NCBI GenBank assembly: GCA_021787665.1
Contig: JAJYLN010000028.1
Location: forward strand, 1-19,852
Direction of reading: 5' to 3'
DNA length: 19,852 nucleotides
Source of the DNA: a bacterium
GTDB lineage: Bacteria; JAMCPX01
Below, piece by piece: positions 967 to 7,687 of this stretch. Every line of letters starts with the position of its first letter. Position 1 is the stretch's first letter. The notes beneath the pieces were generated by a model that was not told the origin of the DNA, did no database searches, and saw nothing but the letters and a program-made list of their open reading frames with translations. Both the position numbers and the translations under genes were made by a program.

Positions 967-3495
967 ATGAAATTCAAGACGAAGATAACGATTGCGAACG
1001 TCATCATAACGCTCATAGCGGTTGCTGCCATCTACTATGTGACCGTCAAGACCATCAGCTTTACCATGGACGTGATCAGGTTCGTGTCGATCGTCGCCGG
1101 CATTATCGTGGTAATAGCGCTCGGTATCCAGTATATCGCGAGCATCAGGCCGTTCTCGATCATAGAAGAATACGACCGGAGGGCGAATGGTGGCGGGGCA
1201 GACGACAAGTTTACCAGACTGGCCTTTTATACCGTGCTCAATTTCCCGTTTTATTTTATGGCCGTGTCCGCTGCCCAATGGTATGTCGCGTCCATAATCT
1301 TTTTCATCTTGCTGTACGGGTTCGAGCACACCGGCCTCACGATCGCCCTGAGGACCGCCTTTGCGATTATCAGCGGCGCTACCATCGCGAACATCTTCCA
1401 GTACTTCGTGTACCAGAGACTGACCGAGCCCCGGATGAGGGAGATCCAGCAGCATATGAAGGACACGGAGCTCTATGTCAGGAAAAGAATCGGCATTGTC
1501 GCAAAGGTCTTCTTCAGCTTCTTTGTCCTTGTCCTCCTCTTTCTGATATTCATTCGGACGATCAGCGACAAGCTCATAGAGGACATCTTCAGGGGGAACG
1601 GCGTCTCATCAGCGAAGGTCGAGCTTGCTGCGTACGTCCCGGCCATTAACTCCCTACTATCGCAGCGACTGCCTGCCGAGCAGACGGCCATAGATCTTTC
1701 GAAGTTCACGTTGGGCAGCTCGGGCTATGTCATCGTGATGGACAATACCGGCAAGGATGTTTTTCGCGGGTCGGACAGCTACGAAGGCAATCTCCCCCTC
1801 GATAAGCTCGCTACACGGGACACGTACAATGATTTCAAAAGCTCGAGTTCCCTGATCAAGGTGTCTATCGGCGATGGCTACTCCCTGGTGGGGGTCTACG
1901 CATGGTCCGATTATGCCTCTGCCCTCTCCAGATTCTCCGAATCGCAGAATTGGCTGCTGCTCGCTATGGCTCTTATCCTTACGACCATCTCCCTATTCAT
2001 CGCAATCGATATATACCTTCCGGTAAAGGCGATTAGCTCTACGGTGGAAAAGCTGACCATGGGCAACTTCTCCACTACAAGCGGCCTGTTCGTCGAGGAT
2101 GAGGCGGGCGTAGCCGCCAACGCAATCAGGAAGATGATCGAGAACATCACGTCGGTCATAAAGAGCATAAAGTCTTCAAGCGCCAATATCATAGGGATAT
2201 CCGATAGGTTGATGAACACCATCGATGGTACCCGGGAAAACATGCTCGTTCTCGACAAAGAGATCAAAAACAATGCAGGAATCATCACCGCAGTACAGAA
2301 CACGTTGAACCAGCTTGCAGAGTATATAGAAGGTCTTCTCAACTCGATCCAGGAGACCCTCGCAAGCAGCCACAAGCTCGAGAAGTCCCTGGCGGGCAAC
2401 GGGAAGACACTTGCAGAGCTCAGGGCAGCCATAGGAAGGCTCCTGAATTCGAGCGATAATCTTCTATCGAAGCTCGCCTCGATACAGCGCCACACCGAGG
2501 ACGACATGGGCAACATCTCCCTGAACGGCTACGGATATCTGAGGAACACGGATATGGAGAACGAGGAGATCATGCACCGCCTACGCGACACGATCGGCTG
2601 GATGACGGACGGCTTGAGCAAGCTCGGATCCGAGTTGTCGGCCAATGTGCAATACCGGCAGAAGGTAGGGAACATCTTGTATAAGGCCTCGAGCGTCGTT
2701 GCTACCCTCGATGAGCACGTCAATAAAATCGTAGTGGACTTAAACAAGATAGACCTCGTTATCGACGATACGAACCTCCTCGCCATGAACTCCTCCGTTA
2801 TATCGGCACAGGCGGGAGACTCTGGGAGAGGTTTTGACGTCGTTTCAGAGGAGATAACGAAGCTTGCCAATGTGACGCAGAACAAGATCATAGAGGTACG
2901 AAGCCTGACAGCGCTCCTCGTGAAAGAGAAGGACGCTATCATGAGCAATGTGAAAGAGAAGCAAAAGTTCATCGATATCTTCGACGGCAAGCTGGGATTA
3001 CTGAACGCCGAGACAGGTACCATGACGGGGAACGTAGCTGCCCTCAGGCTCGAATCTGATCAGATTGCCAAGGCAATACAATCCGTGTCTTCCGGGATCC
3101 AGGGACTGCTGAGTTACGCTGCATCCGGCAAGGATACCCAGAGGCTCATAAACGCAAGGCTGGTACACCTAAGCAAGTCCGCGGCCGATATAGAGAAGCA
3201 TGCGACTATCCTGAAGGAAAGCCTGGAACAGCTGGGCCAAGGATGGTCTGCCTATGCGGAAGGCCTCGGGCCCTTCGCTTCTGCGCTGTCTGCCATAAGC
3301 GGTCCTGCGAACGCTATCAACGATTATATGGGGTCGATAAAGGATAGGCTCGGCGAGGTACAGAGGCTCCTCGATAGCATCTCCGGCACATCTCAAAGGC
3401 TCAGCGGGCAGCTCGATAGCCTCGCGGTAAGGGAAGAGCTCGAAAAGATCGTCGTTGCCATTAACGAAGAACCCAGGAAGTACAGAGTGATATGA
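967..3495 (+). CDS. 6-TM HAMP/MCP-like signalling protein, paralogue A (degenerate hairpin tip)
   Basis: This is a membrane signal transducer of the methyl-accepting chemotaxis protein type, 842 aa from ATG 967; an in-frame ATG at 943 would add 8 residues. I prefer 967 because a strong promoter places the transcript start there. Residues 6-58 hold two membrane helices and 86-148 further hydrophobic helices. Another helix spans about 178-198, an extracytoplasmic sensor about 200-327 (with SSGYVIVMDNTGKDV, Cache-like), and a last helix about 328-350. A HAMP-like linker and a long coiled-coil hairpin reach the C-terminus. The tip carries DDTNLLAMN..SAQAGDSGRGFDVV (N603). By eye against E. coli Tsr, F373 is D, E385 is I and R388 is Q, residues needed for trimer or CheA/CheW contacts. 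No cheA, cheW, cheR or cheB is in the window. The stop overlaps the next start by 4 nt (ATGA), so the pair is translationally coupled. The signal sensed is unknown. Confidence 0.8.
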   Translation: MKFKTKITIANVIITLIAVAAIYYVTVKTISFTMDVIRFVSIVAGIIVVIALGIQYIASIRPFSIIEEYDRRANGGGADDKFTRLAFYTVLNFPFYFMAVSAAQWYVASIIFFILLYGFEHTGLTIALRTAFAIISGATIANIFQYFVYQRLTEPRMREIQQHMKDTELYVRKRIGIVAKVFFSFFVLVLLFLIFIRTISDKLIEDIFRGNGVSSAKVELAAYVPAINSLLSQRLPAEQTAIDLSKFTLGSSGYVIVMDNTGKDVFRGSDSYEGNLPLDKLATRDTYNDFKSSSSLIKVSIGDGYSLVGVYAWSDYASALSRFSESQNWLLLAMALILTTISLFIAIDIYLPVKAISSTVEKLTMGNFSTTSGLFVEDEAGVAANAIRKMIENITSVIKSIKSSSANIIGISDRLMNTIDGTRENMLVLDKEIKNNAGIITAVQNTLNQLAEYIEGLLNSIQETLASSHKLEKSLAGNGKTLAELRAAIGRLLNSSDNLLSKLASIQRHTEDDMGNISLNGYGYLRNTDMENEEIMHRLRDTIGWMTDGLSKLGSELSANVQYRQKVGNILYKASSVVATLDEHVNKIVVDLNKIDLVIDDTNLLAMNSSVISAQAGDSGRGFDVVSEEITKLANVTQNKIIEVRSLTALLVKEKDAIMSNVKEKQKFIDIFDGKLGLLNAETGTMTGNVAALRLESDQIAKAIQSVSSGIQGLLSYAASGKDTQRLINARLVHLSKSAADIEKHATILKESLEQLGQGWSAYAEGLGPFASALSAISGPANAINDYMGSIKDRLGEVQRLLDSISGTSQRLSGQLDSLAVREELEKIVVAINEEPRKYRVI

Positions 3496-6014
3496 AACGG
3501 GCGAACCTTTTTCTCACGGCCCTCTTTCTCATCAATTCGTCTCTGGTGATGACGGTCTTCAGTGTCGTACTCGTTACGACGTACACGATAGAGATAAACG
3601 ACTCCGTACTCAACATGATCCTGATAGCGTTTGTCTCCCTCGTTGCCTCGATCGTTTTTTACCTGCTGAACCCTGTCCAGCTCAAAAAGATGGGGGCCTT
3701 GCTGGACAAGCGGTACGATGACTCCGCCCGGGGAATGCTCGATGTGCTGGTTACCTATCCGGTGAAGGCGATACCGATTGTTGCCGCACTATGGCTGGCC
3801 GGCATGGCCCTGTACCTCCTTGCAGGCGGCCTGACCAGTATATTCAGGGCAAACTTTATGCCCCTCGGCTTCCTCTTCTCCGCTCTGTTCGTGATGATAC
3901 TCGGCATTGTTTCACAGACCTATTCGTTCAAAATCGCTACGAACGCATACATCTCGATGGCTATAAAGAAGCTCAACATCCTGGAACTGAAGAGCGTATA
4001 CATTCCCATCAAGTATAAGCTCATCGGTATATCGGGCATGGTGATAGTGAGCGCCTACCTCGTGCTCCTCTATAGTGCTTATCATGGCGCCATGAGGTAC
4101 GTGAACCGCGACGTCTACAGCGATACGCTCCAGGTCGCTGCCGGCGTTGCGCACGGTGTTGAGAAAAGCGCTGATCCTGAGGGCCTGCTGAGAGACCTGT
4201 CCGGCAAGTTTTCAGACAGATACAACTTCTACCTCTACGATCCGCTGGGCAAGTCCGTAACAGACTATTCCGATGCCCGGATCCAGGGCGATGTCGCGAG
4301 GCGGCTCGACAGAGAGGACATTGTGAACGACAGACAGAACCATCAGATACTGTTCCTTCTGGGCAAGCCCGTGAGCGTAAACGGCAAGAGCTATCGCCTT
4401 CTGGTGGGAATAAAGAAGGACTTTTACCATGCGCCCCTGAGAGGGTTCCTGTATAACCTCATCCTGTCCGGGATATTGATACTCATCGTTCTGCTCATAA
4501 CCGACGTCCTCATAGCGAACGACATATCGTCGCACGAAAGGAGCCTGTCGGACTATTCGGTCATGCTCTCGAACAGAGAGCTCACGCGTCTGCCGGAGAT
4601 AGTCTCGACGGACGAACTCGGCATAATCGTGGTCAATATCAGGACGCTTGTCATGAACTTCAGGGACTCCAGGCTCAAGATATCAAAAGACATAGAGTCA
4701 CTGAGCGGTATTATGACCTCGATGTCCGGAGGTATAGCCGGCATACGATCGACCATTGCCGAGCAGTCAAAGTATACCGATGAGCTACGCGATATCGTGC
4801 GCTCGATACGGGAAGTTTCCGGTCAGATATTGTCGCAGAGTGCGCCGCTGAATGAGGCCGCTTCGGGCAATAGCCACTTCGTGCTCCAGGCGCTGCAAAA
4901 AAACAAGGAGTTTGCGCTCTGCGTGAACAGCGTGTCGTACCAGATGACACGGGTATCAACGTTTCTCGTGAACAATATCCGTGTGTACGAAGACATAAGA
5001 AGCAATATCATTACCTTGAAGGAAGTCGTCGTTTCGATCGGTACGGCGGCGAGCTCGATCGACGCGGGAGCGTCCACCATGCATGCCATCCTTGACCGGT
5101 TCTCGGAGTCCCTGGCTGCCGTACAGACATTGAACACGAAGGGTACGGAACTCAAGAAGGATATCGAAGCACTGTTGAGCGAGGTATCGGACATAACGGA
5201 CAATATCATCTCCTTGCTTTCCTCATTCCTCTCCCACATCCAGCAGGCGAGCGAGATGCTGGGCATCATCAACAATATAGCCGAGCGCACGAACCTCCTT
5301 TCCGTCAATGCCTTCATACTCGCTGCATCCCACCAGACCGAGGGCAAGAGCTTCAAGGTGGTGGCCGAGGCGATCAAGAAACTCGCAGACAGGGCCCGGA
5401 CCGGATCGAGGGATATTGCGAACTACATAACGAGGGTCAGGAGGAACGTGGACGAGATCGTGAGCAGCATGAAAGACATCAACGGCTTCATCGCGCTCAC
5501 CAGACAGTCTTTTTCCTTCATTAACTCGATCGAGGAACGGGTCGATCAACTGGTCACATCGGCCGCCGGTATATATGGAAGCAGGACCGGCAGTGTCGTA
5601 TCGTCCACGGACAGGGAGATGCTCCACAGCCTCAGCGCGACCGTCGAAGGCTCGGTCAAGACACTCGTTGACGATATAGCCACCGCAGTCGGTCTTATGT
5701 CCGATATGAACGGCGCGGTCACGGGGATAAAATCTTCGCTCGACAGGATGGCTGAGGTCAATGAAGCGGACAATGCCGCTCTGACTGCGGTCAACCACTC
5801 TATCGAGGACATAAAGACCTTTACCGGGTATATAAACGACAGCCTCGCTGTGGACGTCAGTAACCAGATACTCCTGTCCGAGAGCTCGGCGGGAGAGCTG
5901 GGTGATCGCATCAAGGGTAACGAGCAGACCGTCCATGAGCTTGAGGGTATCGTCCGGCAGCTCGCGTCCGAACTCGATTCCCTGAACAACGCCATCAAGC
6001 TGTTCGTCGTGTAG
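3492..6014 (+). CDS. 6-TM HAMP/MCP-like signalling protein, paralogue B (strongly degenerate hairpin tip)
   Basis: 840 aa with the same plan as the upstream gene. Membrane helices lie at about 7-30, 40-60, 91-113, 122-142 and 175-196. An extracytoplasmic domain spans about 197-315 (NFYLYDPLGKSV). A sixth helix lies at about 316-341, followed by a HAMP-like region to about 395 and a long coiled coil. The tip asparagine is residue 601, almost the same position as in paralogue A (603), so the two are probably an old tandem duplication. The tip reads ERTNLLSVNAFILAAS and HQTEGKSFKVV. The AGE-GRGF hallmark is lost, and by eye the Tsr residues F373, E385 and R388 correspond to E, L and S. The flanking VVAEAIKKLADRA helix stays canonical. 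The start ATG overlaps the preceding stop by 4 nt, and recO begins 10 nt after its stop. A structural partner or heteromer with paralogue A, or a receptor uncoupled from CheA, are inferences. Confidence 0.8.
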   Translation: MKRANLFLTALFLINSSLVMTVFSVVLVTTYTIEINDSVLNMILIAFVSLVASIVFYLLNPVQLKKMGALLDKRYDDSARGMLDVLVTYPVKAIPIVAALWLAGMALYLLAGGLTSIFRANFMPLGFLFSALFVMILGIVSQTYSFKIATNAYISMAIKKLNILELKSVYIPIKYKLIGISGMVIVSAYLVLLYSAYHGAMRYVNRDVYSDTLQVAAGVAHGVEKSADPEGLLRDLSGKFSDRYNFYLYDPLGKSVTDYSDARIQGDVARRLDREDIVNDRQNHQILFLLGKPVSVNGKSYRLLVGIKKDFYHAPLRGFLYNLILSGILILIVLLITDVLIANDISSHERSLSDYSVMLSNRELTRLPEIVSTDELGIIVVNIRTLVMNFRDSRLKISKDIESLSGIMTSMSGGIAGIRSTIAEQSKYTDELRDIVRSIREVSGQILSQSAPLNEAASGNSHFVLQALQKNKEFALCVNSVSYQMTRVSTFLVNNIRVYEDIRSNIITLKEVVVSIGTAASSIDAGASTMHAILDRFSESLAAVQTLNTKGTELKKDIEALLSEVSDITDNIISLLSSFLSHIQQASEMLGIINNIAERTNLLSVNAFILAASHQTEGKSFKVVAEAIKKLADRARTGSRDIANYITRVRRNVDEIVSSMKDINGFIALTRQSFSFINSIEERVDQLVTSAAGIYGSRTGSVVSSTDREMLHSLSATVEGSVKTLVDDIATAVGLMSDMNGAVTGIKSSLDRMAEVNEADNAALTAVNHSIEDIKTFTGYINDSLAVDVSNQILLSESSAGELGDRIKGNEQTVHELEGIVRQLASELDSLNNAIKLFVV

Positions 6015-6024
6015 GAAACAGACC

Positions 6025-6780
6025 ATGGGAACCTTTACATCCGAAGGCATTGTCATAAACAGACTGAAGTATCTCGAATCGGACCTGATCGTTACCATTC
6101 TGTCGAAGGACCATGGAAAGATTAAGGCCATGGTAAAAGGGGGCGCAAACAGCAGGAAAAGGTTTCCGGGCGCTTTCGAGACAGGCAATATCGGAGAGTT
6201 TGGCTTCGTGGAGAAGAACCCCTATCAGATCGCGTATGTGGCGCATGCAACGATAGATGATTATCTGATACGGCTCAAGAAAGACTACGAGAAGACGCTG
6301 TTGCTCATCTACTTGTCCGGTCTGACGGATGTGATGACTCCGGAGCGTCAATCCAGTCAGGTGTTGTTCTCCGCGCTGAGTGATACGGTCAGGTTCCTCG
6401 AGGATAGCAAACAACTGAGCCAGGCACGGCTGTTCTACGAGCTGCAACTGCTGAGGATAAACGGGCTGCTCCATGTCGTGGGGAGGTGTGAGTTGTGCAA
6501 GGAACCGTTCCGCAGCGGCGACGATGTCCATCTGGTGGTTGCGAGCGGAAGATTTGTCTGTCATGCATGTGTACCGAATGACGGCAAGGTCTGCCGTATC
6601 CCGTTGGCCCTGCTCACGCTCATAAAATCAGCCGCTCATCATGACATTTATCTGAACGGCCTCTCTGGTATGGAAATACCGTCGGCGCTGTTCGGCTTTA
6701 CCAGAAGGATCATCACCTCCTATATCGACAAGCCATTGAAACTATGGGACATGATTGATACGTTATTGCTCTATGAATAA
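6025..6780 (+). CDS. recO: DNA repair protein RecO
   Basis: RecO works with RecF and RecR to load RecA onto SSB-coated single-stranded DNA, and anneals complementary strands, in the cytoplasm. The 251-aa protein has the N-terminal OB-fold start (TSEGIVINRLKYLESDLIV, then S-K-DHGKI-A-VKG). It also has a Cys4 zinc-binding site, CELC at 155-158 and CHAC at 179-182, followed by the helical C-terminal domain. Length fits the family (about 240-260 aa). ATG 6025 has a good AGGAAA ribosome site a few bases upstream. It lies 10 nt after the second MCP-like gene and its last codons overlap the M50 protease start, so it is embedded in a four-gene operon rather than its common rnc-era-recO context. Confidence 0.92.
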   Translation: MGTFTSEGIVINRLKYLESDLIVTILSKDHGKIKAMVKGGANSRKRFPGAFETGNIGEFGFVEKNPYQIAYVAHATIDDYLIRLKKDYEKTLLLIYLSGLTDVMTPERQSSQVLFSALSDTVRFLEDSKQLSQARLFYELQLLRINGLLHVVGRCELCKEPFRSGDDVHLVVASGRFVCHACVPNDGKVCRIPLALLTLIKSAAHHDIYLNGLSGMEIPSALFGFTRRIITSYIDKPLKLWDMIDTLLLYE

Positions 6781-7687
6781 AGATTATCTGGACAATACGC
6801 AGATAGACCTGGAGAAGCTCCATGACGACTTTTATGGATGGAAGCCGCCCGAGCCACCGAAGATCAAGATAGTTGCGCCGGCTATCCTGTTCTTTGTGAC
6901 CTTTATTGCGGTCCTCTTTGCAGGATCACTACAGTATGGTGTAAACCCCTTTTCCCATCCTGACCAGGTGTATAGGGGCTTGCCATTCGCGCTGGTCCTG
7001 ATGGGCATATTGTTGTCCCACGAGATGGGACATTTCCTTATGTCGAAGCATCACCATGTCGCAGCCACTCTGCCTTATTTCATTCCTGCCCCCAACATCC
7101 TCGGCACGTTCGGCGCATTCATACGCATGAAATCGCCGATACCGGACCGCAACGCGCTCGTGGACATCGGGGCCGCTGGTCCCCTGGCGGGGTTCGTGGT
7201 CGCGCTCCCGGCACTGATTATCGGAATGAGGATGTCGTCGGTCTCGGCTGTTACTGCTGCCGGGAGCTTCAGGCTGGGAGACTCACTGCTTGTCAAGCTC
7301 GTGTCCCTCCTGGTCAGACCGGACGTCACTGCCGGTCGTCAGCTCGTACTGAGCCCCATTGCGTTCGCAGGGTGGATAGGTATGTTCGTCACCGCAATGA
7401 ACCTCATACCGATAGGTCAGCTCGACGGCGGTCATATCGCGTATGCGCTCTTCGGTAAATGGTACAACGCCATTGCAAGGCTGGCCCTCGTTGCGCTCGT
7501 CGTCATGGGTATATGGGGCTGGGAGGTATGGCTGTTCTGGGCACTGATCATACTGATTCTCGGCGTACGACACCCGAGTCCCATGGACCCGTATCAGCCC
7601 CTCGACAGAAAGAGAAGGTCGATTGCGTTGATCGCCATGGTCATCCTGATCATCACCTTTATACCCGTACCGTTCTCCGGGTTCTGA
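6773..7687 (+). CDS. site-2 protease-type membrane zinc metalloprotease (M50 family)
   Basis: This is an intramembrane metalloprotease of the M50B type, 304 aa, with about six hydrophobic helices. The zinc-binding HEMGH motif is at residues 83-87, and the third-ligand region NLIPIGQLDGGH has its LDGG at about 217-220. A G-rich helix (DIGAAGPLAGF) lies between, as in S2P homologues. No PDZ domain is evident, so it is a short, PDZ-less member rather than RseP. Substrates cannot be told; relatives cleave membrane-bound anti-sigma factors or signal peptides. ATG 6773 overlaps the recO stop by 8 nt (ATGAATAA). A TTG at 6755 is an alternative that would add 6 residues. Its stop codon directly abuts the stop of the opposing gene. 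An anti-sigma factor lies about 10 kb away in this window, but a link between them is speculation. Confidence 0.88.
   Translation: MNKDYLDNTQIDLEKLHDDFYGWKPPEPPKIKIVAPAILFFVTFIAVLFAGSLQYGVNPFSHPDQVYRGLPFALVLMGILLSHEMGHFLMSKHHHVAATLPYFIPAPNILGTFGAFIRMKSPIPDRNALVDIGAAGPLAGFVVALPALIIGMRMSSVSAVTAAGSFRLGDSLLVKLVSLLVRPDVTAGRQLVLSPIAFAGWIGMFVTAMNLIPIGQLDGGHIAYALFGKWYNAIARLALVALVVMGIWGWEVWLFWALIILILGVRHPSPMDPYQPLDRKRRSIALIAMVILIITFIPVPFSGF

Follow-up and report, generated by a model that had tools for sequence, protein, structure and literature searches.

Genes A and B, which lie next to each other in the 19,852-nucleotide stretch of bacterial DNA analysed here (the window), are best explained as a co-expressed, non-adapting pair of 64H receptors that work in the single CheA array of their host and probably control type IV pili. 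We give this reading a probability of about 0.58, and we infer the docking, the hetero-oligomerisation, the lack of adaptation and the output. Each protein consists of a four-helix membrane module that leads into a unit of TM5, sensor, TM6 and HAMP, and from there into a coiled coil of 64H length. The two proteins would be divergent partners that are expressed together and do not adapt through CheR and CheB, and they would most likely insert into the single 64H CheA/CheW array of the host, perhaps as A-B hetero-oligomers. A, with a tip near the class standard, would be the better binder of CheW and CheA, and B, in which the turn is altered, would act as a modulator or as a partner with weak coupling.

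Results

As originally predicted, A and B are adjacent genes for proteins of 842 and 840 amino acids, and the open reading frames confirm that they overlap, sharing ATGA at the junction (Table 1). The length of A is counted from the ATG at 967, and a second in-frame ATG is present at 943. Both proteins score above the curated cut-off of 34.6 bits for PF00015, the MCP signalling domain (59.2 bits for A and 52.7 bits for B), and the Pfam HAMP match in A (E 0.041) falls under its own cut-off. The proposed plan of four plus two membrane helices, a sensor, HAMP and a coiled coil is borne out by hydropathy, Pfam and structure models. Positions 1-781 of the window encode a prolipoprotein diacylglyceryl transferase that has lost its N-terminus at the contig start (the frame stops upstream).

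Table 1. Features of the gene pair, its conserved neighbours and the che operon of the host
Feature	Coordinates	Strand	Evidence
Gene A, 842-aa six-TM 64H-class MCP-like receptor	967..3495	+	ORF; PF00015; phylum orthologues 8/9
A residues 1-163, four-TM N-terminal module	967..1455	+	Hydropathy; hhalign homology to other 64H receptors
A residues 173-356: TM5, periplasmic sensor (helix plus beta strands), TM6	1483..2034	+	Hydropathy; model
A HAMP region, VEDEAG motif at 376-381	2008..2154	+	Sub-threshold Pfam HAMP; conserved motif
A signalling tip, residues 590-640	2734..2886	+	Best-conserved stretch of A
Gene B, 840-aa six-TM 64H-class MCP-like receptor, degenerate tip	3492..6014	+	ORF; PF00015; orthologue adjoins A
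B residues 1-161, four-TM N-terminal module	3492..3974	+	Hydropathy; hhalign
B residues 173-348: TM5, PAS/Cache-like periplasmic sensor, TM6	4008..4535	+	Model; weak fold matches
B signalling tip, residues 588-638, TNLLSVNAFILAASHQTEGKSF	5253..5405	+	91% identity over 589-613
recO, conserved neighbour 3' of B	6025..6780	+	TIGR00613, 112.7 bits
Peptidase M50 family protein, conserved after recO	6773..7687	+	PF02163
che operon on G000:C24: DUF4388-RR, RR, CheA, AAA, two CheW, MCP, zinc-ribbon RR, HEAT, CheR, CheB	L098:1135-14673		

The phylum sample comprised nine genomes, most of them metagenome bins with names that suggest acid mine drainage; they represent a single family and four of its genera. 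Orthologues of A and B are adjacent in eight of the nine, and the pair and its tip substitutions are conserved outside this genome; three of the B orthologues are truncated where a contig ends. Wherever assembly extends past B, the gene order is A-B-recO-M50. recO lies directly 3' of B in all seven such genomes, and the M50 order is conserved in six relatives. The homologues are therefore not always next to cheA and cheW, as the pair sits beside recO, away from the che genes. We do not accept the absence of the pair from the ninth genome (G005) as a true loss; recO is missing there too, which makes an assembly gap likely.

The reading frames of A and B are open in all genomes that hold them, with dN/dS values of about 0.14 (A) and 0.23 (B) that fall to near 0.02 in the tips, where dN is about 0.02-0.03 against a dS of about 1 in the two closest genomes. 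The tips are near-invariant, with 98% identity at 593-617 in A, and are the best-conserved stretch of each protein. Branch lengths in the tree are 2.5 for A, 3.2 for B and 0.55 for the CheA-linked receptor of the host.

Hydropathy supports six membrane helices in both proteins, and also in the 64H receptors L173, L174, L178 and L181-L184 from outside the phylum. When 386 genomes were searched with an N-terminal profile, the matches outside the phylum were weak and confined to the HAMP end; unlike this search, comparison with a profile of seven outside six-TM 64H receptors, and only this, brought out homology. The N-terminus of A matched that profile with 99.5% probability (E 8e-23) and that of B with 98.4% (E 4e-15), and the first 200 residues, which exclude the sensor and HAMP, still matched in hhalign with 97.6% (E 2.7e-12) and 94.1% (E 1.3e-7), respectively. 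As controls, reversed versions of the profiles and five further membrane proteins all stayed below 1%. Judged by these profiles, most of the six-TM N-terminus of A and B is homologous to the N-terminus of ordinary 64H receptors. Between A and B themselves the N-terminal match is 88.9% and drops to 5% without HAMP, and both still match the outside six-TM profile. As this match is lost and the tree leaves B unplaced, these data do not show A and B to be sister duplicates.

The structure models of both proteins consist of long helices plus an alpha/beta sensor. In A, pLDDT is about 70-80 across sensor residues 221-310. The top fold matches of the B sensor are extracytoplasmic PAS and Cache sensor domains, with weak E-values. 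For the N-termini, confidence in the models is low to medium (pLDDT 60 and 71), and for that reason only the fold of the B sensor was used, with caution.

The original prediction measured the tips against E. coli Tsr and held that residues contacting CheA and CheW had been lost. The residues equivalent to Tsr 373, 385 and 388 had been read correctly, as D/I/Q in A (D600, I612, Q615) and E/L/S in B, but their label was wrong: E385 and R388 make an ionic lock that joins the dimers within the trimer of dimers (PMC8144572), and hence they are not CheA/CheW contacts. In the phmmer matches to Tsr 1QU7, taken as starting at residue 294, the query and chain stretches are equal in length, which is consistent with N603 of A and N601 of B being N376. 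These two asparagines had been mistaken for the hairpin tip. The hairpin centre of Tsr is E391 (PMC5364426), and its equivalents are D618 in A and T616 in B, the turn lying about 15 residues past N376. With S388, Q390 and T391, B has lost the class Q388, the turn glycine G390 and E391, and the tip of A stays close to the class standard. The AGE part of an AGE-GRGF hallmark said to be missing from B is indeed gone, but the GKSF of B is shared with the CheA-linked receptor of the host. Likewise, position 373 is acidic in both proteins as claimed, but we ruled this out as a special feature, since E or D occurs there in 41 of 52 outside-phylum receptors and F in 3. A literature search for natural variants of the trimer contacts found none.

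Tsr is a 36H receptor and is therefore the wrong yardstick for A and B, even though the canonical E and R are literally absent from both tips. It resembles them in the MCP signalling hairpin and at positions N376, N381 and F396, but its rod is much shorter and it carries E385/R388. The 64H receptors are a known MCP class that is included in MiST3 (PMC6943060) and occurs, for example, in Desulfuromonas (PMC8235581). By their sequences, A and B have the rod length of this class in both arms, from HAMP to tip and from tip to C-terminus, at about 64 heptads by our own arithmetic rather than by assignment with the MiST3 64H profile. From the HAMP DExG to N376 there are 224 residues in A and 226 in B, compared with 226 in the CheA-linked receptor of the host, and the tail is 239 residues long in all three. 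The tip residues were compared in 52 distinct outside tips, a sample that is biased, its loci having been chosen for their resemblance to A or the CheA-linked receptor, and whose members are not independent. I/L385 together with Q388 is present in 19/19 receptors with a tail of 237-245 residues; in the remaining 33, E385 occurs in 26 and I/L-Q in seven, mostly receptors whose HAMP spacing is the same and whose C-terminus is longer. A (I/Q) matches this signature, which was found in the present analysis, and B (L/S) matches half of it. I385/Q388 also occurs in a second type of MCP from the phylum (IIANQAGEHGKGF). Another receptor of the phylum, L058 (G008:C195), has E385/R388, a HAMP spacing of 209 and a tail of 238, and lies near further CheW domains; this is possibly a second che system or contamination.

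Neither a strict nor a loose methylation-site consensus was found in the coiled coil of any A or B orthologue. The CheA-linked receptor of the host has two strict and seven loose motifs, and every further 64H receptor checked has at least two, apart from a degenerate one in G051. By composition alone, zero motifs is not improbable (P(0) about 0.6), so the argument rests on the consistency across orthologues. Lacking the standard motifs, A and B therefore probably do not adapt through CheR and CheB.

The absence of che genes that had been noted is true of the window but not of the host genome, which has one complete che operon elsewhere, away from A and B. CheW-domain matches were found in 8/9 phylum genomes, and a host without che genes is thus ruled out. 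The CheA-linked MCP of the operon (tip QTNLLALNAAIIASQSGEYGKSF) shares I385/Q388 with A and GKSF with B. Because it carries the same residues as A, E385I/R388Q cannot be taken as loss of CheA contact, and these substitutions do not support signalling through something other than a standard CheA array. The substitutions follow the 64H length class instead, and the six-TM N-terminus also occurs inside a che operon. In the che operon of the host, an AAA_22 ATPase follows CheA, and the zinc-ribbon RR and the HEAT-repeat protein precede CheR; parts of the gene set recur in other lineages (L172, L174, L184, L190 and L193).

PilT was found in 9/9 phylum genomes and flagellin in 0/9, which is why the output would probably go to type IV pili. 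The host genome has two PilT-family ATPases above the cut-off (G000:C28:1954-2979 and G000:C6:82628-83662), and a weaker, perhaps PilB-like match adjoins the former.

Elsewhere, six-TM and degenerate 64H receptors are found inside che operons. L184 holds a six-TM 64H receptor of 893 aa between cheW and HEAT-cheR-cheB, and in L174:151-4798 (G022:C95) an 843-aa six-TM 64H receptor heads a che operon and overlaps a two-TM 64H receptor. In L172:9638-14093 (G051:C198), an overlapping 64H pair lies in an operon with CheA, CheW and CheR and combines a normal receptor with a degenerate one without a methylation motif (tip ISAQVTSIEGRSF / NASIISAQVTSIEGRSF). This pair resembles A and B in being adjacent, overlapping 64H receptors with one degenerate, motif-less tip, but differs in that it is two-TM, lies inside the operon and has a normal, methylatable partner.

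Discussion

The main inference of the original prediction arose mostly from measuring 64H receptors against a 36H one. The 64H-class MCPs share with A and B the rod length in both arms, the HAMP-linked coiled coil and, in several members, the six-TM N-terminus. The I/L385-Q388 tip is common to them and A, but B differs, with L385/S388 and no G390/E391, and both proteins differ in lacking methylation motifs and in being paired away from the che genes. As far as the sequences go, the lack of motifs throughout the orthologues, the degenerate B tip and the separate locus are still unusual.

The rods match the CheA-linked receptor in length, and A and B would therefore most likely insert into the CheA array. 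Several features count against this reading: the location outside the che operon, the missing Q388, G390 and E391 of B, the long branches, and the P(0) that makes a lack of motifs unsurprising. Most of these, together with the motif-less coiled coils and the conserved place beside recO, would also suit a membrane array or scaffold of their own, independent of CheA, in which the tips keep only coiled-coil packing and the proteins pass their signal to some other partner or organise a different machine. We consider this unlikely, as the length fits that of the CheA-linked class, the tip typical of this class is retained in A, che operons elsewhere contain degenerate and six-TM 64H receptors, and no candidate output partner is encoded near A and B.

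Slightly less likely still is that B is not coupled to CheA and heterodimerises with A, holding it in a state or place as a brake or spacer. Wherever they are assembled, A and B lie side by side, and in the window they overlap; the class Q388 and turn residues are lost in B only, and the G051 pair offers a parallel. However, the tip is the best-conserved part of B, which suggests a specific contact, B has a sensor domain of its own, and the heterodimer is only predicted. The faster evolution of A and B than of the CheA-linked receptor, and the consensus residues lost in B, might even be taken as decay under relaxed constraint, but the open frames and low dN/dS, lowest in the tips, reveal purifying selection and contradict this very improbable reading.

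Within the preferred reading, in which the pair belongs to the CheA array, we would offer one further proposal, as a doubtful one: A and B may be an obligate, non-methylatable, heteromeric pair of pseudo-receptors that serves as a fixed-output or brace unit of the 64H array, with one tip unable to make the standard trimer and CheW contacts, and the G051 pair would be an independent case. Tip residues deemed essential from work on E. coli depend on the receptor class, as I/L-Q stands in place of the E385-R388 trimer lock in all 64H receptors sampled, and a false sign of CheA independence is thereby removed from annotation. As natural, conserved receptors of array length without methylation sites, A and B may be useful for learning what trimer and CheW contacts minimally need. 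The archaeal HtrVIII (PMC13401364) also combines six membrane segments with an MCP-like C-terminus; compared by description only, its segments are cytochrome oxidase-like, whereas those of A and B are arranged as four plus two, with the sensor between TM5 and TM6.
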